Source: Candidatus Sysuiplasma jiujiangense
GTDB lineage: Archaea; Thermoplasmatota; Thermoplasmata; Sysuiplasmatales; Sysuiplasmataceae
Assembly: GCA_019721075.1 (NCBI GenBank)
Contig: JAHEAD010000001.1
Location: 1 to 64,000, forward strand
DNA: 64,000 bases
Direction of reading: 5' to 3'
Shown: one piece after another, positions 48,345 to 64,000 of the stretch
Position numbering within the stretch: the first letter of the stretch is position 1
Layout: the number at the start of each line of letters is the position of its first letter
The notes under the pieces: model-generated
The model's database searches: none
What the model was told of the DNA's origin: nothing
What the model saw: the letters and a program-made list of their open reading frames with translations, nothing else
Made by a program: the position numbers and the translations under genes

Positions 48345-49313
48345 TTGTCGTCAAAAGCAACAGCCGTAGCACACCCGATGCAGGGTCTGATAAAATACCA
48401 CGGTCTGAGGGATGAAAGGCTGCGCCTTCCCTATCATGATTCGATTTCAGTTGCAACGGCTCCGCTTACGACAACAACGACTGTCGAATTCGGTGATTTT
48501 GCTGCAAACGATGTCAGCATCGACGGCAGGAAGGTTTCCGGCAGGCCTCTTGAAAGGGTCGAAAACGTCATGGAAAGGGTCATGTCGATTGCGTCCGTCA
48601 GTGGAAAATACAGAATAGTCTCCAGGAGCGATTTTACCTCGGGTATCGGGCTCGGAGCCTCGGCATCGGGTTTTGCAGCGCTTGCGACTGCTGCATGTGA
48701 AGCTGCAGGCCTTAAAATCGGCGTTCAGGAGCTTTCTGCAATAGCAAGACTGGGAGCCGGTTCAGCAACACGATCCGTGGTGGGCGGCTTTGCCAGATGG
48801 CAGGCCGGAGCGGGAGACCATGACAGCGTCGCCTATTCCATTGCCGGACCCGAAGAACTGCAGATGGGCATCATTGTCGGCATCGTCAAAACGGTAAAGC
48901 AAACGGAGGATGCTCACAGAGAGGTTCTCACATCACCGCTTTTCCAGGGAAGACTGTCCTATCTCCATACGGCACTTGCTGACATGACCCTGGCCATAAA
49001 GTCCGGGGATGTGCCGAAGATCGGCGAACTGGCAGAGAAGGACACCCTGATGCTGCATGCCATAACGATGACAGGGAACAGCGGCATGATTCTGTGGAAG
49101 CCCGATACACTCCTGATTATTGAGGCAGTTCGGCAGATGAGGAAAGAAGGTTTGCATTCCTATTTCTCCATAGATACGGGTGCAACAGTTTACATAAACT
49201 GCCCGGATGATGAAATAAGGGAAGTTGAAAACAGAATAGGCTCACTCGGAATCGAAACGCTGAGATGCAGTGTTGGCGGCGCGAGCCGCATTGTGAAGAA
49301 ACATTTATTCTGA
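48345..49313 (+). CDS. Phosphomevalonate/bisphosphomevalonate decarboxylase (GHMP)
   Basis: A 322-residue GHMP-superfamily protein related to diphosphomevalonate decarboxylase. The N-terminus (AHPMQGLIKYHGLRDERL, then LPYHDSISVATAP) closely resembles the archaeal phosphomevalonate decarboxylase group, and SGIGLGASASGFAALATAA is the phosphate-binding loop. The later SVVGGFARWQAG segment is also in the family. In archaea this group decarboxylates phosphomevalonate, or mevalonate 3,5-bisphosphate in Thermoplasma, to isopentenyl phosphate for isoprenoid lipids. Which substrate is used cannot be read by eye. It starts at a TTG with GAGGTG 5 bp upstream and overlaps the convergent gene by 9 bp. Confidence 0.85.
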   Translation: MSSKATAVAHPMQGLIKYHGLRDERLRLPYHDSISVATAPLTTTTTVEFGDFAANDVSIDGRKVSGRPLERVENVMERVMSIASVSGKYRIVSRSDFTSGIGLGASASGFAALATAACEAAGLKIGVQELSAIARLGAGSATRSVVGGFARWQAGAGDHDSVAYSIAGPEELQMGIIVGIVKTVKQTEDAHREVLTSPLFQGRLSYLHTALADMTLAIKSGDVPKIGELAEKDTLMLHAITMTGNSGMILWKPDTLLIIEAVRQMRKEGLHSYFSIDTGATVYINCPDDEIREVENRIGSLGIETLRCSVGGASRIVKKHLF

Positions 49314-51255: not shown

Positions 51256-52041
51256 TCATTTTCTGGGTTTCGGTCTTCTGAAAAATATCAGAACGGAGAA
51301 CGCTGCTGCCACGATTATGCCGGATATCAGCACATCATCGATTTCAGTGAACGTATTTCCGGGCAGGTATATTGTAATGCTTGTCGTCCTTGCACCGTTT
51401 GAGAAAAGGAGCGTGTTGTTTGCATCAATGACCACAGTCAATGTATGCGAGCCAGGTGCATAAGAATAAGAGATCCAGTCGAATGTGACGTTCACGGTCT
51501 GGTGGGCACCGACTGAAACTGTCTGGGTCTGGATAAAGTGTCCGTCCACATACAGGGATACCGGCGCGTTGCGTATGCCTGAAGCGCCTTCGTTGTAAAT
51601 TGGTATTGTTATTACAACAGGATGGACGACATTGATGAGAAATGACTCCGTCTTGTTGACTGTGATCCCTGACGAAGTAAATGAAGCGTTAATAACGACA
51701 GTCATTATGCCGGAAGGCGACATTGAAGTGATGTTGACCTGAAATGATCCTGAAGGGCTCTTGCCCGTCGAGGGCTGTATGCTTGAGCCGGTGGTGTTCC
51801 TTGCCTGGATGCTCGCGGAATAGCTGTAATTGGAGCCTGCCGAAACTGCCGGCCCTCCGGTTATATTGAGGTAGTAAGAATTCGTGGAGCCGTTGGCAAC
51901 GATGTCCGGCCCTGAGAAATATACATCAAGCGGTGCATAGGATGCAGAGGCCACGGCCGATGGACTCCGGCCCATCGGGGCGATGAATGCCGACAGCACA
52001 ATAAGGACAATTAACGAGATGGAAAATATACGGCCGCTCAC
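51256..52041 (-). CDS. Membrane-anchored CARDB-type surface protein
   Basis: A 261-residue protein with an N-terminal signal or anchor helix (IFSISLIVLIVLSAFIAPMG), an extracellular beta-rich region and a C-terminal helix (DDVLISGIIVAAAFSVLIFF) ending in basic RRPKPRK. Residues about 145-225 resemble a CARDB adhesion-like repeat: IPIYNEGASGIRNAPVSLYV, then VGAHQTVNVTFDW and GSHTLTVVIDANN. Several N-x-S/T sites are present. It starts at a GTG overlapping the aglB stop (GTGA), so it is translated with the oligosaccharyltransferase and may be a partner or substrate of it. No catalytic motif is visible. Confidence 0.8.
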   Translation of the reverse strand: MSGRIFSISLIVLIVLSAFIAPMGRSPSAVASASYAPLDVYFSGPDIVANGSTNSYYLNITGGPAVSAGSNYSYSASIQARNTTGSSIQPSTGKSPSGSFQVNITSMSPSGIMTVVINASFTSSGITVNKTESFLINVVHPVVITIPIYNEGASGIRNAPVSLYVDGHFIQTQTVSVGAHQTVNVTFDWISYSYAPGSHTLTVVIDANNTLLFSNGARTTSITIYLPGNTFTEIDDVLISGIIVAAAFSVLIFFRRPKPRK

Positions 52042-55000
52042 CTGATCAGCCTCTTTTTCTTTGCAAGATAAACGTCAAAGATGACGAACGCTGCAAACAG
52101 GAAGATTATTACACCTCTCCTTTCAGTGAACAGAGGCAGAGGTGTCGGGGAGGCGCCATGCCCGCTGACCTTAATCCCGCTTAGCGTCACCACAGGGCTT
52201 GGCAGGCTTATCGGGACCGCCATGGAAGCTGACTTATTCGTGTTCGAATTTGTTACGGTGAATGATATAGGGACCATATCGGGGGTCGTTGAGCTGCTGG
52301 CGGTAAGCGAGATGGTAATGGACTGGTTCTGCCCGGCCGGAACGGAGAATGTGACGGAGCCGGAATTAAACGGCCCGGATTCGGCGGTTGATATGCCTCC
52401 TGTCCAGCCTTCCTGACTGAGTTCGGCAAAGTTGCTGATGCTCGCCGTGAAGTTGGCGGCTGCATTTCCAGTGTTGAAGACCAGAAGGTTGACTGCAAAA
52501 ACCCTTCCCTGCTGTTCATACTGGTAAAAATCGAATTTGCTGTAGAATGTGTAGACAGAGGGTACCGATATCTGCACTGAAGCCGTCGATATCGTATCCG
52601 TTGCGGTGGAATATGCCTGCAGGTATACGGTTGAGTTTCCCCCTCCGACCCCGCTCGTGGGATAAAGAGAAGCGGTAACTATCGCTGTGGAATTATTGCC
52701 TGTGCCAAGCGTTCCCGCGAGCGGGCTGAAAGTTCCTGCCCAGCCGTTGGAGGCAATCCTCATCGCAAATGATGACGGAACATCACCGTCATTTTTCAGC
52801 TGCAGAGTTACCTGAGAAAAACCTGTCGTGTCAGGCGTCCTGCTGACCGACAGCAGCTTCAGCTTAAGCGAGTGGTATGGCTGGATGTTGAGTGTTACAG
52901 GGTTGTACAGGGAAGATGAAACGGTCATATTGCCCTCATACGCATAGCGGTATACAGTGCCCTGGGAACTGAAACTGTAATTCGATGTAACAGAATAGTT
53001 TCCTGCAGGGAGTACCACCGAATAGGAGCCGCTAAAAGACGGCACGCTGATGCTCGTTCCCCCTCTGCTGAAAACGATTACAGGATTAACGCTCCGCGCA
53101 CCCGCGACTGTCACAGGGCCCGTAATATTGTAAGATTCTGCAAGAGTCAGATTCAGGTTAGCAGACTGGCCCACCGTAACCGAGATTGTTGTATAGTTTG
53201 AGCCAAGAGGACTGCCTGATACAGCTGAAACAAGATACTTTCCAGGCTGCAGAGACACAAAATAGCTGCCCTGCGACGTCGTCACAGCTGTTTGATTCCG
53301 ACCCATACCGTTTATGGCCGTGAATGTCACAGACGCTTTCGCGGCGCTTCCATAATACCATGAAACTGTGCCGCTTACGGAGGCGTTGTCGTCAAATCTG
53401 AGCGTGTTTATTGAAGTAAAGACGGAAGAGGCAAGTGAAATGGTTTTGTTACCGTAGTACACCACGTATACCGTAGTGCCGTTGAGCTGCATCGTTGTCG
53501 GAAAAGTGACATTTACAGAGTAGGTTGACGGCGGGAGCGAAACACTGAACGTGCCGTTCGACTGTACGGCCGCAGTAACAGATGCTCCTGTGTTGAGCAT
53601 CGTTACTGTGACCGATTCAGAGGATGAAAGTGTGCTGCCGCCATAGGTTGCCTTTCCACTGAGGTTGTATGCATAAGACAGCTGGAAAGAAAGAGCTACA
53701 GGCGATGAGACATTGAATCTGGAAAGATAGGCAAAAATGCTGCCTGAAACTGCAGAATAAGCGTATATGGTATAGACACCTGACGGCACATACACTGCCC
53801 TCCCAGAACTGTAACCGTCGATTGCAATAGGCTGAGGCAGCGACGAACTGAACAAATCGAGTCTGGTCAGAGCCTGACTGCTGCTGATTCCGGAGCCTGA
53901 CGGGTACGCAAAACTGACCGTAAGATTATATAAGGTATTTACTGAAATGTTAAAGGTCGTCAGACCGCTGCCGATGCCCACGTTCAGCGTTGATGCACCG
54001 CCCACTGTAAATTCCACCGTGCTGCTGCTGTAATTGGTAATAGTCGCATCGTATACGCCGGGATTCAACGTTGCCGTGTAGCGCCCCTGCGAAACAGGAA
54101 AACTCTGATTGATTGAGGAATTGGACACCGAAGCAAAGGTTATTTCGGAACCCGCCGGAAGCGCCTGCGATGCATGTACACTGCCTGTAACTGTAACTGC
54201 AACGGGTATCATCGAAATATCGCTGGTAAGCGGAGTTGAGGGAAGAAGCGTGTAATTGACCTGATGCATTCCAAATGCTGAAAGGTTGAGTCCGAATGAG
54301 AAACCATCAGGAAGGTAGAATGAATAGTTACCGAGAATCCCCGAGTAGTATGAATACTTGAGGCCGTTGTAGTCGATAACCATGTGCGAGCCGGCAATGT
54401 AATGAGCTGAGCCGCCGCTGTTGAAATTGACATCGCCCTGGTAAAGTCTCGAATTTTGAAGGGTAAAATCCATAGCCATTCCGCTACCGGAAATTGTCAC
54501 CTGGCCGAGCGCCGACCCGATCTTCGCTGAAATCCATACCGAATAGGTACCGGCCGGAAGAAGAGCAGAGTAATTTCCTTTGCTGTCTGAATAGACAGAC
54601 AGCGATGCATTACCGTTCTGCAGGTAAATTCTGGCAAACGAGGCTGGAACCCCACTGGCCATATAGACAGTCCCGGACAGGGGAATCGCCCGGGAGAAAG
54701 TGAAATTGAGCAGTGAATGCACACCGGGCAGCACTTGCAGCGATTCCATGAGAACGTACTTTACAGAATTCAGATAATAAATAGAGTAGACTGTATAGTT
54801 GCCTGACCCGATGGTTGAGTTGTAATATCCGCCTGCACCCGTTCTGATGATGTAAGGCCTTATGCCCTGTTCGTTGCTGTAAAAGTATATCGTTGCAAAG
54901 GAGGCGGACGAGCCGGCTGCAAAAGCCCTACCGTAAATGCTGGAAGGCGTCTGGGCAATTATGTTTACAGATGTTGTATTGAAGGAACGCACGAATGCAC

Positions 55001-58000
55001 CGTATACGGCGGATGTGCTTCCGCCGGAAAGCGTCAGAGTGTAATTCCCGGGGAGAACCCGCTCAAATGAGAAACTGCCATTCGATGCGGATTCGACCAC
55101 GGAGGAAATGCCGTTGTGGACGCCTGCCAGCGTCACATAAGCACCCGTCAGCGGAGAGCCGTCAGGGAACATCACCTGACCGGAAACTGTTCCAGGGTAA
55201 ACTGGAATGTTCTGTGTGGTATTCGTGGAATAAGAAATTGTGGTGACATTCTGTGTTTGAATAACGGAGTTTCCCTTCACCAGGTAGAACTGATATTCGC
55301 CGGGAAGGATTGAATTGAACTCGTAGTGGCCATCTGCAGCACTTGTGTTATACGACTGGCCGGTCGTAGTATTTACAATCCTGACTGTTACGTTGCCGAG
55401 AAGAGAGCTCTGGCCGGGGACATAAGTTCCTGACCTGCTGCTGTCGAAGAACACGTAGCCGCTTACTGAAGTGGCATTCAGCTGCATTGGACTGGCTTGT
55501 ATGTTGAATGCAGGGAGGCCTGTTGTGGCATTGATGACATTATAGCGCATGGCTTCTGAGTTGCTGACGTTGTATGTCTGCTCCCCGATGACCTGCCCGA
55601 TGCCTGCAACAACCGATTGCGGGGAACTCAGCGGACCGGTTGAAAAGACCACAGTATCGTTCCCCGGGGGTGCAATGAGGGAATACTGGCCTCTCTTATT
55701 GGTGTAAGCTATATCGTGTGGTATTCCCCACTGGTCCAGCACCGTGGCGCGGACACCTGATGCCGGCTGGCCGTCTCTAAACAGCACGGTGCCGTTTATG
55801 AAAGCGCCTGGGTAATATTGCATTATAACTATACCGTTGCCGTAGTCGCTCTGGGGACTCAGGTCAACAGTATAGTTCTGGTTGTTCGGATCCTGCTTGA
55901 AAAGCTTGAGTGCGGTGGCAACGTCGATTGCCTGCCAGGCATTTGGATGGTCCTTGACATACTGTATCGGATACGGGTTGTAATACGCCGTCCTGTACGC
56001 CATGAAGAAATGCGACATCATCCATCCGGGAAGCGGCTGCAGATTCTGGAGAGACGGAACAGACAGGAAACTGCCTGACAGAGCGGGGATTCCCTGAAGA
56101 TTCTGATGCGTCAGATCGTACGCACTGTATCCCATGAAAAACCTGTACAGTGTCATGTTATAGAACATCGGCTGATAATTGATTGAATAATTGACAATCT
56201 GTGTATTCGGCGGAATGCTCTGCAGCGGGTAGTTTACACCTGTGGTCGAAGTTGCATTCAAAGTGTAGTAGTTGTAAGGTATATTGTAAACGGTCGGTCC
56301 TGCCATCGGCCTTCCACCGAGAAGTGCAGGTGCATAGAAAACACCCGTGTCGGTTGCGCTGAAGGGGAAGAGCCTGGTGTCGACAGAGAAATAGCCAATG
56401 TAATAATGGGTTATACTTGAAAGCTGCTGGTAAAGGGTAACGGTATTGTTCAGACCGATCTTTGAAATTGTCGCCATCAGAACCGCCCACATTATATTCT
56501 GCGGGGCGGCATTGGATGCGAAGGGGCCGTATACAGTGGGATTCGCCAGGACCGTACTTGTGAACTGGCCGGGATTCCTGTAAACTGAGAGAATGAAGCT
56601 GCTGTTCAATCCGTAGCTGCTCAGCACAGTGGTGATATTCTGCGGAAGATAGCCGTATTTCACGTAGTAGCCGTACGCCACCCTTGCGGAAAGCAGAGCA
56701 ATAAGCTGGGTTTCATTCTGGCTGAACAGGACTGCGGACGCAAAATGATATCCCTGCTGGAAGTCGTCTGCAACAGCCGGCAGGCCAGCTTTGGTAATAG
56801 ATGCGCTTCCATAATCCCACCAGCTCAGATATGCAGGGCGCTGGGACGCTGGAGTGATATTTTCATTATGCTGATAGAGCCATTCCCATGCGGCAGGGAA
56901 GTAATCATTGAGTGTGGAAAGGCTGTAGCCGAATGCACCGAAGTAGTAGACTGAACTGCCGTTGTTTGTGTAACCCGATGGTCTCAGGAAGCCTGGGACT
57001 ATATTGTAAACTTCCGTGTTCAGCTGTTGCTTCATTGTCTCCGGTGTCCCTGCATCGATGCCGGACCAGATGAGTGGAAGTATGACAATACTTACCACCA
57101 GGAACAAAACAATGACATGCTTCATTTTGACACTTTTTCTCGTGCCGCTGACCGAAAAGCCGTAGGTCTGGTATCCTTTCTTCACCTCTCCGAAATCGGC
57201 CCATCTGATCAGGGAAACAAGTCCCCTGCCGCCCAGAACAACGAATACTGTTGTAGCATCGAGTACGAAACGTACCGTGGAAACAGCCATGAAGACAGCG
57301 ATTATCGACCACACCACAAACAGCGTCATTGAATCTGAGATTTTTCTCCTTGAAAGGTAGAATATATACGCCAGTTCGGCAAAAGCAATGAAGAAAATTG
57401 AACCGCCAAGGGAAAGCGCAAGAAGGCTGAAAGGCGGAGCGAGCGCTTCAGCAATTGTTGTGTAGACGGTCGTTTTTATGAAATAGCTCTGTGCGAGAAG
57501 TATGTCCCCTACGAGGGTGTGTATCAGAGGCTTGTCCAGAAGTTCCGCAGCCGCGACAACAACCAGGACGGATATGACAAGACCCGTGAGTAGTGACAGC
57601 CATGGCACGTCTCTCGCAACCGTGTAAATAGCACCAAAAACAAGAGTTCCGAAGAAGAATGCGACAGCAACGATGTACCAGGGATAAATGTGGCCACCGA
57701 GGAAATAAATCGGAAGGGAAAACACAAGGAGCGACAGACCGACGACCGTCCAGGTTGCGGTGAGCGCGAGTGTATCCCTGTTCTTGAACTTATAGATGAA
57801 TGACTGCACAAGGTAGAAGAGTGAAACAATTACCAGGAGATATGAATAGCCTTCCCAGGCGTTGGCTATAGATGCGAGCACGATTCCGGCCATCAATGCA
57901 TATATCAGTGATTTCCTGTTGGTCGAGGCATAGCCTGCAATCCCTGTCCTGATTGACGCGAAATCCGGCCTGAATGATTGTTTCTTAGTCCATCTCTCCA

Positions 58001-58685
58001 CCCATCTGTTGCCGGCTATCGTGTTAAGCGAACGGAAGTAAAAGAAGAAGAAAAAGCCGGCCATCATTAGAATGAACGGATCATGGACGCCGAAACCAAC
58101 CGTGCTCTCTGAAACAATTGACGGCATGAATGCCATCAGACCCGCAGCAAGGAGACCTGTATGCCTGTCGAACAGCTCCTTTCCAATGTAATAAGCGACT
58201 ATAATTGAAATGATGCCGGATAATGCAGACATCAGGACGTATGCGACCACGCCAGCAGAGAGCTTTGTCGAATAGATTGATGTTATCAGAGGCAGGTGGA
58301 ACAGGAAGGAGATTATCCAGGCGGCAAGCACCGTGGTCCAGACATAAAACGGCAGAAACGGATTCTTTGATCCCAACGGATAATTCAGCAGCGGATCAAA
58401 TTCGAGCTGATGGCCAGTAACAAGGGCGTACCTGAGAACCCGGAAGTAGTAATCGGCATCAGATCCGCCGGACAGTCCTGGATATCCAGAAACGATGGCC
58501 TGCGAAAAGTCGAAATAGATGCGGAGATATGCGCCCAGCAGAACGAAAAGAGCGAGCGCTGAAACGATGCGCCAGTCAACGCCCGACATCGCCTGGTAGA
58601 ACCTGCGGAATCTCCGGGATGATCCACTGGGCGCCTCAGTTCCAGTGACATCTTTCTTTTTAACAGTGTTTTCATTATTTGACAT
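52038..58685 (-). CDS. aglB: AglB/STT3 oligosaccharyltransferase with giant extension
   Basis: About 2,215 residues. Residues about 35-545 hold some 13 membrane helices; SGGSDADYYFR near residue 85 is the first DxD-like metal site and VGFGVHDPFI a later acidic loop. The WWDYG catalytic-site motif is at 622-626 (AYLSWWDYGSASI), followed by the globular external domain to about 970. It transfers lipid-linked glycans to Asn-X-Ser/Thr. The remaining 1,200 residues are a long run of Ser/Thr/Asn-rich beta modules of carboxypeptidase-regulatory/CnaB type (repeated G-x-Y...PG-x-Y patterns), closed by one helix and a basic tail. Ordinary AglB proteins are 600-1,000 residues. The ATG 58685 is preferred over the upstream TTG, because a TATA-like CTTAAATAGC lies at about 58733-58742. 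Confidence 0.9.
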   Translation of the reverse strand: MSNNENTVKKKDVTGTEAPSGSSRRFRRFYQAMSGVDWRIVSALALFVLLGAYLRIYFDFSQAIVSGYPGLSGGSDADYYFRVLRYALVTGHQLEFDPLLNYPLGSKNPFLPFYVWTTVLAAWIISFLFHLPLITSIYSTKLSAGVVAYVLMSALSGIISIIVAYYIGKELFDRHTGLLAAGLMAFMPSIVSESTVGFGVHDPFILMMAGFFFFFYFRSLNTIAGNRWVERWTKKQSFRPDFASIRTGIAGYASTNRKSLIYALMAGIVLASIANAWEGYSYLLVIVSLFYLVQSFIYKFKNRDTLALTATWTVVGLSLLVFSLPIYFLGGHIYPWYIVAVAFFFGTLVFGAIYTVARDVPWLSLLTGLVISVLVVVAAAELLDKPLIHTLVGDILLAQSYFIKTTVYTTIAEALAPPFSLLALSLGGSIFFIAFAELAYIFYLSRRKISDSMTLFVVWSIIAVFMAVSTVRFVLDATTVFVVLGGRGLVSLIRWADFGEVKKGYQTYGFSVSGTRKSVKMKHVIVLFLVVSIVILPLIWSGIDAGTPETMKQQLNTEVYNIVPGFLRPSGYTNNGSSVYYFGAFGYSLSTLNDYFPAAWEWLYQHNENITPASQRPAYLSWWDYGSASITKAGLPAVADDFQQGYHFASAVLFSQNETQLIALLSARVAYGYYVKYGYLPQNITTVLSSYGLNSSFILSVYRNPGQFTSTVLANPTVYGPFASNAAPQNIMWAVLMATISKIGLNNTVTLYQQLSSITHYYIGYFSVDTRLFPFSATDTGVFYAPALLGGRPMAGPTVYNIPYNYYTLNATSTTGVNYPLQSIPPNTQIVNYSINYQPMFYNMTLYRFFMGYSAYDLTHQNLQGIPALSGSFLSVPSLQNLQPLPGWMMSHFFMAYRTAYYNPYPIQYVKDHPNAWQAIDVATALKLFKQDPNNQNYTVDLSPQSDYGNGIVIMQYYPGAFINGTVLFRDGQPASGVRATVLDQWGIPHDIAYTNKRGQYSLIAPPGNDTVVFSTGPLSSPQSVVAGIGQVIGEQTYNVSNSEAMRYNVINATTGLPAFNIQASPMQLNATSVSGYVFFDSSRSGTYVPGQSSLLGNVTVRIVNTTTGQSYNTSAADGHYEFNSILPGEYQFYLVKGNSVIQTQNVTTISYSTNTTQNIPVYPGTVSGQVMFPDGSPLTGAYVTLAGVHNGISSVVESASNGSFSFERVLPGNYTLTLSGGSTSAVYGAFVRSFNTTSVNIIAQTPSSIYGRAFAAGSSASFATIYFYSNEQGIRPYIIRTGAGGYYNSTIGSGNYTVYSIYYLNSVKYVLMESLQVLPGVHSLLNFTFSRAIPLSGTVYMASGVPASFARIYLQNGNASLSVYSDSKGNYSALLPAGTYSVWISAKIGSALGQVTISGSGMAMDFTLQNSRLYQGDVNFNSGGSAHYIAGSHMVIDYNGLKYSYYSGILGNYSFYLPDGFSFGLNLSAFGMHQVNYTLLPSTPLTSDISMIPVAVTVTGSVHASQALPAGSEITFASVSNSSINQSFPVSQGRYTATLNPGVYDATITNYSSSTVEFTVGGASTLNVGIGSGLTTFNISVNTLYNLTVSFAYPSGSGISSSQALTRLDLFSSSLPQPIAIDGYSSGRAVYVPSGVYTIYAYSAVSGSIFAYLSRFNVSSPVALSFQLSYAYNLSGKATYGGSTLSSSESVTVTMLNTGASVTAAVQSNGTFSVSLPPSTYSVNVTFPTTMQLNGTTVYVVYYGNKTISLASSVFTSINTLRFDDNASVSGTVSWYYGSAAKASVTFTAINGMGRNQTAVTTSQGSYFVSLQPGKYLVSAVSGSPLGSNYTTISVTVGQSANLNLTLAESYNITGPVTVAGARSVNPVIVFSRGGTSISVPSFSGSYSVVLPAGNYSVTSNYSFSSQGTVYRYAYEGNMTVSSSLYNPVTLNIQPYHSLKLKLLSVSRTPDTTGFSQVTLQLKNDGDVPSSFAMRIASNGWAGTFSPLAGTLGTGNNSTAIVTASLYPTSGVGGGNSTVYLQAYSTATDTISTASVQISVPSVYTFYSKFDFYQYEQQGRVFAVNLLVFNTGNAAANFTASISNFAELSQEGWTGGISTAESGPFNSGSVTFSVPAGQNQSITISLTASSSTTPDMVPISFTVTNSNTNKSASMAVPISLPSPVVTLSGIKVSGHGASPTPLPLFTERRGVIIFLFAAFVIFDVYLAKKKRLIR

Positions 58686-58818
58686 CTGTGGGAGCACAAC
58701 CGAACGATTATTTTTGCTCAGTAGTATCAATTGCTATTTAAGCGTTATATGTTTTTTCATAAAAGGAAGAACGATACCAGGAAGCGGCAAATGACTGATC
58801 CGCGTAGCGTCCGCACAA

Positions 58819-59490
58819 CTAGTTTTTAGCGATGGCTTCCCTCCCCGACTGTATCTCTGAAAGATAAGTATTTACAACATCCAGCGGTTCTGACGATCCG
58901 TAAATGCTCCTTCCCACTATAAGTGCGTCAGCTCCATTTGTTATAGCCTCCCGCGCATCACCGCCCTGCGCTCCAACGCCGGGAGCAAGTATGGGCATCT
59001 TCCCCAGAAGGCTCCTGAAATGCTTTATGCGTTCCGGTCTGGTTGCAGGGGCGACTACACCGTCAACCCTGAGCTGGACGGCCATACCGGCGAGTTCATC
59101 CGCGAAGCGCTGGCCAAAATCTGCTGATCCGGGATTTGACATTTCAACAACGAGGAATACAGACGCACCATGCGCACTGTTTATGCATGCCTCCACCGCA
59201 TCAATGCCTGTGAAACCGTGAACAATAATGCCGGACGCCCCGAGTTTTACGGCAGCCGATGTCACCATAGAATTTGTATGCGGGACATCAGATACTTTGA
59301 AATCGCAGATTACGCGGAAATGGTTGGATATTTCAGTGATTATCTGTGGTCCGTTGGCCAGAATTATAGGCCAGTTGAGCTTGATTGCATCAACGTATTT
59401 CCCAACAGTATTGACAATATTCATGGCCTTCCTGTAATCCGTTTCATCCAGCGCAAGTATCAGGCCCCTATTGAAATTGACCTTCGGCAT
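58819..59490 (-). CDS. pyrF: Orotidine 5'-phosphate decarboxylase
   Basis: A 223-residue TIM-barrel protein. LILALDETDYRKA starts the barrel, the catalytic D-K-x-x-D array lies in VICDFKVSDVPHTNS, and the phosphate loop is APGVGAQGGDAREAI with GADALIVGRSIY. It makes UMP from OMP in pyrimidine synthesis. The length is normal for archaea. No other pyrimidine genes are adjacent. Confidence 0.95.
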   Translation of the reverse strand: MPKVNFNRGLILALDETDYRKAMNIVNTVGKYVDAIKLNWPIILANGPQIITEISNHFRVICDFKVSDVPHTNSMVTSAAVKLGASGIIVHGFTGIDAVEACINSAHGASVFLVVEMSNPGSADFGQRFADELAGMAVQLRVDGVVAPATRPERIKHFRSLLGKMPILAPGVGAQGGDAREAITNGADALIVGRSIYGSSEPLDVVNTYLSEIQSGREAIAKN

Positions 59491-62768: not shown

Positions 62769-64000
62769 TCACTGACTGCGCCTCCTGAATACCCTGAAAT
62801 TCCGGATAAGAGCGATTGTGCCCTGATTATAGAGCGGTATGACGATCAGAGCGAGCAGCAGAAGAATCAGACCCGATCCTGAAACAATGTATCCGATTGT
62901 GAGCACCTGGAAGGGTGAGAAATAGACTGAAACGGCGGACGGGCCTCCTCCGCTTATCTCATACATCAGGTCACCTATGGAGCGGTAGGACATGCTTGTA
63001 TTGCTGGCCGCATATGATACAAGGTCCGGAGCCGTTTGCCATCCTGAATTAGAGCCTGATGGCGGAACGAAAATCAGGTAGTTCTGATAGCCGAAGTCCA
63101 GCATTCCAGGCAAATAGATGCGATAGTCTGCATCGCTGATCTTTTTTGTGCTGAGGAGCACATATGAACCATTGCCGTATGACGCATTGGTGGCAGCAGT
63201 ATGGCCCGGGGCAATACCCCAGCCGTAATCGAGCATGTTAAGCCTTGCAGACAGGTTTATCAGTTGTTCATATCCTGTTACGATCTGAATGGTGTGGACA
63301 ACGTAAGCCCTTGATACGGGATGCATGTTCTCAAACAGCGCGGAGGATGAACTGTTTTCAACAAGCCTGAGATCCTTCTGCCCGTAGAGGAATGAGTAAT
63401 TCCAGTAATCTGCACTTTTGCTCAGAAAGACATATTTGACGTCCATGAGAGACAGTAAGTTCCCAAGATGTGTGATGCTGTTTCTCTCATTAAGAATTGA
63501 GGACATCAGCGACGAGAAGAGACCGCTTTCTCCCTGACCCGAGAGATAGGTGTCCTGACCACCGTAGATCAGATTCTGGCTGAAAAATTGATTGAAAGGA
63601 GATGCAAATTTGGTGCCGCTCCAGTTATAGTACATGTAGCCGTGCCATGGAAGGACCAGCACTGAGTAGTCGGAAGTGTTCTGATTCATCATATCTTCCG
63701 CCTTATACCATGATGCGGGATACTGGACAGACGTCAGCTGCCCGTCAAAGGAGCCGACCTCCATGTACGAATAAATGAAAGGTGAAATGAGTATCATGAC
63801 AATCACGAGGACGATGATCGCCCGTGCCGGGCCCCTGATTCCGCTCGCATTGAAGTGAAGATGCTTTCCTTCCAGTAATGACTGAAGCTGCAGAACGCTA
63901 AGGCCGCCAAGAAAAGAGTAGGCAAACACCAGCAGTGCGACAAATTTCTGAGGCTCCCTGAAGCCGTTGAAGAGGGGGACGTTATCATAGAGGAAAGTGT
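62769..64000 (-). CDS. Large membrane protein, N-terminus cut by window edge
   Basis: The frame is open from the window edge at 64000 to the stop at 62769, giving at least 410 residues of the C-terminal part. The first visible residues are YDNVPLFNGFREPQKFVALL, a membrane-protein loop and helix. Two helices (AYSFLGGLSVLQL, IIVLVIVMILISPFIYSYME) are followed by about 280 external residues with many N-x-S/T sites and a final helix (LTIGYIVSGSGLILLLLALI) with a basic tail. The 'FREPQKF' loop and the layout recall polytopic YfhO-like or GT-C-type surface-glycan proteins, but that is a weak match. It lies 5.4 kb from pyrF and near aglB, so a surface role is plausible. Confidence 0.7.
   Translation of the reverse strand, partial: TFLYDNVPLFNGFREPQKFVALLVFAYSFLGGLSVLQLQSLLEGKHLHFNASGIRGPARAIIVLVIVMILISPFIYSYMEVGSFDGQLTSVQYPASWYKAEDMMNQNTSDYSVLVLPWHGYMYYNWSGTKFASPFNQFFSQNLIYGGQDTYLSGQGESGLFSSLMSSILNERNSITHLGNLLSLMDVKYVFLSKSADYWNYSFLYGQKDLRLVENSSSSALFENMHPVSRAYVVHTIQIVTGYEQLINLSARLNMLDYGWGIAPGHTAATNASYGNGSYVLLSTKKISDADYRIYLPGMLDFGYQNYLIFVPPSGSNSGWQTAPDLVSYAASNTSMSYRSIGDLMYEISGGGPSAVSVYFSPFQVLTIGYIVSGSGLILLLLALIVIPLYNQGTIALIRNFRVFRRRSQ

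Follow-up and report, generated by a model that had tools for sequence, protein, structure and literature searches.

A giant AglB of Candidatus Sysuiplasma with a fused membrane-anchored rod and an adjoining CARDB membrane protein, and its counterparts in Thermoplasmatota

Results

The aglB locus and its neighbours

The window (the whole stretch of 64,000 nucleotides that was analysed) belongs to Candidatus Sysuiplasma, an acid-living archaeon, in which AglB attaches sugars to surface proteins. It contains a giant aglB gene and, directly downstream on the same strand, a gene for a membrane protein with a CARDB ectodomain, called the partner below; their features are collected in Table 1. A first-pass annotation made from this sequence had described a giant AglB here, and the gene is indeed one intact fused ORF with zero internal stops, in a frame that stays open over 52038-58730.

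The gene pyrF (OMP decarboxylase) adjoins aglB upstream (window 58819-59490, minus strand); homologues of it turned up in 17 of the retrieved loci, so the gene order pyrF-aglB-partner may be an old one. Elsewhere the window encodes a protein similar to MVD or mevalonate-3-kinase (48345-49313, plus strand), which is expected for the Thermoplasma-type mevalonate pathway, and a fragment of a larger membrane protein (62769-63929, minus strand). The fragment, which the window edge probably truncates, contains many sequons and matches no Pfam family. The counterpart of this fragment in locus L037 has about 850 aa.

Table 1. Features of the giant aglB gene and the partner gene (window coordinates)
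Feature	Position	Strand	Basis or remark
Partner gene, 261 aa, GTG start	51256..52041	-	signal peptide, Ig/CARDB ectodomain, C-terminal membrane helix, basic tail RRPKPRK
GTGA, partner start codon overlapping the aglB TGA stop by 4 bp	52038..52041	-	
Giant aglB, 2,215 aa, ATG start at 58685	52038..58685	-	ORF, Pfam, alignment
Multi-pass membrane part, STT3 (PF02516), approx. residues 40-545	57051..58568	-	Pfam STT3 76-364; hydropathy
First DXD-type motif GGSDAD, residues 73-78	58452..58469	-	
TIXE motif, as TIAE, residues 410-413	57447..57458	-	
WWDYG motif, residues 622-626	56808..56822	-	
Extracellular catalytic globular part, approx. residues 546-956	55818..57050	-	conservation profile; A2 profile against AfAglB
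T0, first TTR/CarboxypepD_reg-like domain, residues 957-1062	55500..55817	-	also in canonical-size AglBs of the phylum
T1-T10, ten TTR/CarboxypepD_reg-like repeats, residues 1063-1932	52890..55499	-	Pfam, hhalign
I1 and I2, two Ig-like domains (FixG_C/NEW3-type), residues 1933-2172	52170..52889	-	hhalign; Pfam on relatives
C-terminal membrane helix, residues 2190-2211	52053..52118	-	prediction
Basic tail KKKRLIR, predicted cytosolic	52041..52061	-	

Catalytic part

The STT3 domain scores 59.7 bits with PF02516, the curated cut-off being 24.5. The motifs of the AglB/STT3 family (GT66) are present: in addition to GGSDAD and TIAE, the second metal motif reads GVHD, in which the second Asp is kept and the first replaced, and WWDYG stands where the first-pass annotation had located it, as alignment and motif search agree. 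The latter motif is invariant in all 32 intact AglBs of our alignment A2, and the A2 profile matches the A. fulgidus AglB structures 3waj/5gmy with E about 2e-36 over profile positions 9-621. With the NCBIfam model archaeo_STT3 (TIGR04154, archaeosortase-associated) the protein reaches 148 bits, below the curated 450. By domain and motifs we consider it an oligosaccharyltransferase (OST), with transfer of a lipid-linked glycan to N-x-S/T as its putative reaction.

The end of the globular AglB part had been expected near residue 970. In the conservation profile of the alignment, T0 reaches about the same level as the catalytic part, so we count AglB proper to about residue 1060.

Rod

What follows is a membrane-anchored rod of ~1,150 residues. 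The A. fulgidus AglB has 868 aa (PMC8342417) and lacks the tail, and the canonical-size AglBs of the phylum have 1,135-1,358 aa, in agreement with the about 1,200 extra residues reported earlier. The beta modules proposed for the extension can now be specified: all-against-all hhalign profiles place T0-T10 in one family of 11 TTR/CarboxypepD_reg-like repeats, and I1 and I2 in another (99% for I1 against I2, about 0-5% for either against the T domains). Pfam CarboxypepD_reg matches the protein with E=2e-37, and matches of this type occur in 30 of 32 relatives. The proposed membrane helix at the end is also predicted by us, as the last helix of the protein, followed by a basic tail; in the giant AglBs the last 12 aa carry a mean net charge of +4.2.

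Across 39 species, the region past residue 960 comprises 1,139-1,360 aa and is aligned colinearly and nearly without gaps, at a mean identity of 23% in the rod and 40% in the N part. By this alignment the rod is a constant part rather than a variable repeat array. It is single-copy in its own genome, with weak partial matches elsewhere there. AlphaFold2 with 3 sequences gave no confident structure (mean pLDDT 29.8 and 40.3).

The many N-x-S/T sites noted earlier in the extension exceed chance: 42 are observed and 18.4 expected from shuffling (z = 7.2), while the reversed motif [ST]xN occurs 21 times. The class mean is 2.04 times expectation; by group, the value is highest in the Thermoplasmataceae sampled (2.30), followed by the Sysuiplasma family (2.07), the intact methanogen orders (1.77) and the clade without catalytic motifs described below (1.28). 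Some intact lineages (L041, L047, L072, L078) have no enrichment, and most sequon positions are not conserved. The pattern fits a rod that would normally be glycosylated, with relaxation in the clade whose OST is apparently dead. From the sequon counts it is plausible that the rod is glycosylated; that the enzyme glycosylates itself is a further, putative step.

Partner gene

In each of 44 class loci examined, the start of a partner-like gene lies no more than about 60 bp from the aglB stop, and 33 of them show the exact 4-bp overlap of start and stop; these counts include L065, as well as L061, where the partner encodes only 179 aa. The gene is present in every class locus with readable downstream DNA, in 16 further loci of family f6 (GTDB families are meant throughout), and, outside the class, in family f37. 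It was not found downstream of the giant aglB genes of the Poseidoniales-like loci and of families f36, f56 and f61, nor downstream of canonical-size ones. In its own genome it is single-copy, other matches being weak and partial, and profile searches of PDB and Pfam return CARDB and generic Ig matches. Most likely, the partner serves AglB as an accessory subunit within one complex.

Distribution and origin of the tail

The comparison of AglB lengths suggested by the first-pass annotation identifies the giant form as the norm of the class Thermoplasmata. S. superficiale has the gene over its full length (69% identity in the best segment). In the Sysuiplasma family, an STT3 match is present in 6 of 8 genomes, five of them in ORFs of about 2,230 aa and one, on a short contig, in a frame that is shorter. 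In the class it is present in 233 of 300 genomes, and most full-length frames have 2,000-2,400 aa, in about 30 families.

Profile scans were extended to the phylum Thermoplasmatota (390 genomes). The AglB profile matches in 379 and the rod profile in 388, the weak rod matches being perhaps other proteins with the same repeats. By the AglB profile, lengths are mostly 2,000-2,400 aa in the class, 2,080-2,744 aa in several other families, and about 3,100-3,280 aa in a group that we take to be Poseidoniales. Judged by alignment and profile, the usual AglB in the class is a colinear protein of 1,900-2,400 aa, and larger ones occur elsewhere in the phylum. ORFs of 2,085, 2,079 and 2,088 aa are presumably the AglBs of Thermoplasma acidophilum, T. 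volcanium and Aciduliprofundum boonei, respectively. The T. acidophilum protein has no Pfam STT3 match at E<0.01, which may explain its being overlooked. In two Thermoplasma loci (L057, L094) the second DXD is unrecognisable, with DGRMHT instead of ADHDA.

Three loci of families f47 and f55, probably Poseidoniales (L083, L084, L088), have AglB ORFs of about 3,200 aa with a longer tail and no partner downstream. The gene in L088 is split by a frameshift; in L083 the STT3 domain begins only at residue 437, i.e., there is an extra N-terminal part of about 400 aa.

Canonical-size AglBs (1,135-1,358 aa) occur in the deep families f45, f51, f59 and f60. There the core continues into two or three TTR-like domains with homology to T0/T1, and a C-terminal membrane helix is absent. 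All giant AglBs form one group in our tree, the root of which was placed arbitrarily on the canonical-size forms. Considering that the short proteins end in the same repeats and the giant ones group together, the tail probably grew by repeat duplication and gain of the anchor, a direction that hinges on the chosen root. In the Thermoplasma family, the AglB of one genus is shortened to 1,433-1,454 aa and retains the membrane anchor; to judge from its sequences, most rod repeats can be lost.

Methanogen clade without catalytic motifs

Family f6, which we take to be Methanomethylophilaceae (one genome is presumably Methanoplasma termitum), consists of gut methanogens, with mcrA present. In the species examined other than genus g59, the first metal motif, WWDYG, TIXE and the second DXD are degraded to varying degrees: GGSD is changed to GGSS, GGTG or GGSE, WWDYG to WIDYV, WFGNS and others, and TIXE is lost in all of them. 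Degradation is mildest in a few AglBs, including those of G207, G145 and G130, which keep the first Asp. Genus g59 retains all motifs and is sister to the remaining f6, which form one clade with support 1.0.

The genomes without motifs each have a single AglB locus by profile search, besides a 286-aa frame in G207 that matches weakly. Their full-length AglBs are ORFs of 1,831-2,555 aa with the C-terminal helix kept, and rod and partner are retained in some 17 such species examined. The rods match the class rod in hhalign at 100% (E=9e-43, 896 columns). In the partner of this clade, the cytosolic tail RKPVKNxGKPKxRR is 79% identical and the ectodomain 33%.

From their motifs, these AglBs are apparently enzymatically dead. 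Considering that ORF, rod and partner are kept nonetheless, something besides glycan transfer is probably preserved, and the rod probably has a function in its own right. The loci concerned (L045, L046, L132-L147) thus appear to encode pseudo-oligosaccharyltransferases with an intact giant ORF; the conserved partner tail in them is a candidate motif for the docking of a cytosolic component, for instance the ribosome.

Discussion

Comparison with known systems

The giant AglB has the membrane part and the DXD, TIXE and WWDYG motifs in common with the A. fulgidus AglB-L (PDB 3waj/5gmy/7e9s). The latter protein stops about where T0 starts and has neither rod nor C-terminal membrane helix. The canonical-size AglBs of Thermoplasmatota share the core and the T0/T1-like domains but have no C-terminal helix and no CARDB partner; they are the probable starting form of the rod. 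We know of no accessory subunit of a euryarchaeal AglB, the OST being regarded as a one-protein enzyme.

The best PDB match of the rod profile is NOMO2 (9c7v), with E=2.5e-36 summed over several repeats and an i-E of 3e-11 for the best single stretch; the next distinct protein is SdrD (6e-9). NOMO, of the BOS complex in the multipass translocon, has about a dozen prealbumin-like domains and one membrane helix and works at the translocon (PMC11169918, PMC11186639). The layout of the giant AglB agrees with this (11 TTR-like and two Ig-like domains and a C-terminal helix), with the difference that NOMO is a stand-alone protein and the rod is fused to an OST. Orthology is not supported by the matches, which are strong in sum but lack colinearity: T1-T3 align with two separate stretches of NOMO. 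This is expected within one repeat superfamily, and we describe the rod as NOMO-like in layout and not as a NOMO. A search for Nicalin and TMEM147 (PF09767, PF05450) was silent in 21 genomes, as were the controls.

The partner shares its plan with TRAP (SSR) subunits, namely an Ig-like ectodomain behind a signal peptide, a single membrane helix and a basic tail in the cytosol. At the translocon, TRAP is in contact with OST-A (PMC11186639). Membership of the partner in TRAP was rejected; it is a CARDB protein with no sequence match to TRAP alpha/beta in PDB or Pfam, and the likeness is an analogy of layout only.

Possible role of the rod

We are inclined to believe that the protein is a single-chain OST fused to its own membrane-tethered extracellular scaffold, with the CARDB protein as accessory subunit, acting where surface proteins emerge. 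The catalytic body would sit in the membrane with the globular AglB part facing outside; the chain would run on outside as a rod of 11 TTR-like and two Ig-like domains and re-enter the membrane by the final helix, which would leave the rod held at both ends near the enzyme. Under the positive-inside rule, the basic C-terminal end is predicted to be cytosolic. The co-translated partner, with its basic cytosolic tail, would join the complex, and together with the rod it would probably hold, fold or assemble new surface proteins, while the attached OST would glycosylate these proteins and the rod. It is the doubly tethered rod near an OST, along with a co-translated partner with a basic tail, that suggests a scaffold where new surface proteins appear. 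Docking to the ribosome or SecY is hypothesised here by analogy with TRAP and NOMO (PMC11186639, PMC11169918). Against the scaffold reading, one genus has shortened the tail to a whole protein of 1,433-1,454 aa, and the Poseidoniales-like group, f36, f56 and f61 have giant AglBs and no partner downstream.

The simplest objection, a missed stop, a chimeric assembly or an annotation error, can be dismissed with near certainty. Nothing pointing to it was found here, and for it speak at most the frameshifts in two relatives; the same fused ORF recurs in many independent assemblies, including single-contig genomes; the fused ORFs of relatives thus refute it. Separate aglB and beta-repeat genes in relatives had been named as what would betray such an error; among the 390 genomes, the two apparent splits examined (G161, G313) proved to be single genes with a frameshift, read as two ORFs that overlap in different frames. 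The first-pass annotation had also left a choice between a fused adhesin and a scaffold for acceptor proteins. The idea of a surface adhesin or a stalk of the glycocalyx, fused to AglB by chance, would suit a long extracellular beta-repeat array with many sequons and with related modules in adhesins (the SdrD_B matches). We nevertheless find it improbable, since domain number and length are nearly constant, the rod is colinear, nearly free of indels in 39 species and single-copy, with weak partial matches elsewhere in the genome, and the same membrane-partner gene follows it across the families of the class. Species-variable repeat number, which is usual in surface adhesins though not strictly required, is absent in these 39 species of near-constant length. 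The scaffold fits best, given the fixed domain number, the few gaps, the uniqueness in the genome and the retention after motif loss.

The remaining readings concern glycosylation. We regard as quite improbable a rod that is a self-glycosylated protective sheath round the enzyme, with the carrying of glycans as its job: the roughly twofold sequon enrichment (z = 7.2 in this protein), its maximum in the Thermoplasmataceae sampled and its drop where the catalytic motifs are lost speak for it, but the intact lineages without enrichment, the low conservation of most sequon positions and the retention of the rod in the clade without motifs do not. A rod that serves glycosylation only, by capturing acceptor proteins and delivering them to the active site, and that lacks any function independent of this, would agree with the physical fusion to the OST and with the coupled partner gene. 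It is put in doubt by the persistence of rod and partner, with full-length ORFs, in the some 17 species without motifs, and we hold it to be rather unlikely. A broader version of the scaffold reading, to which we give limited credence, is a surface-biogenesis platform of Thermoplasmatota in which the OST is one module: rod and CARDB partner would act on secreted and membrane proteins at the SecY exit independently of glycosylation, as the functional counterpart of the eukaryotic NOMO/TRAP/OST round Sec61, and the Methanomethylophilaceae OST would be a dead scaffold, a natural separation of functions.

Conclusions

We are unaware of a description of the giant tail, the partner or the dead AglBs in the open-access literature, in which none was found; the T. 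acidophilum genome was released long ago, so the length of its AglB may have been remarked on before. The rod fused to AglB throughout the class and the translationally coupled membrane protein would be candidates for accessory parts of the euryarchaeal OST. The clade with an apparently dead OST that keeps rod and partner would provide a natural test of the scaffold role apart from glycosylation. The layout is similar to the NOMO/TRAP/OST surroundings of the translocon in eukaryotes and is therefore relevant to the question of how assemblies of this kind come about.
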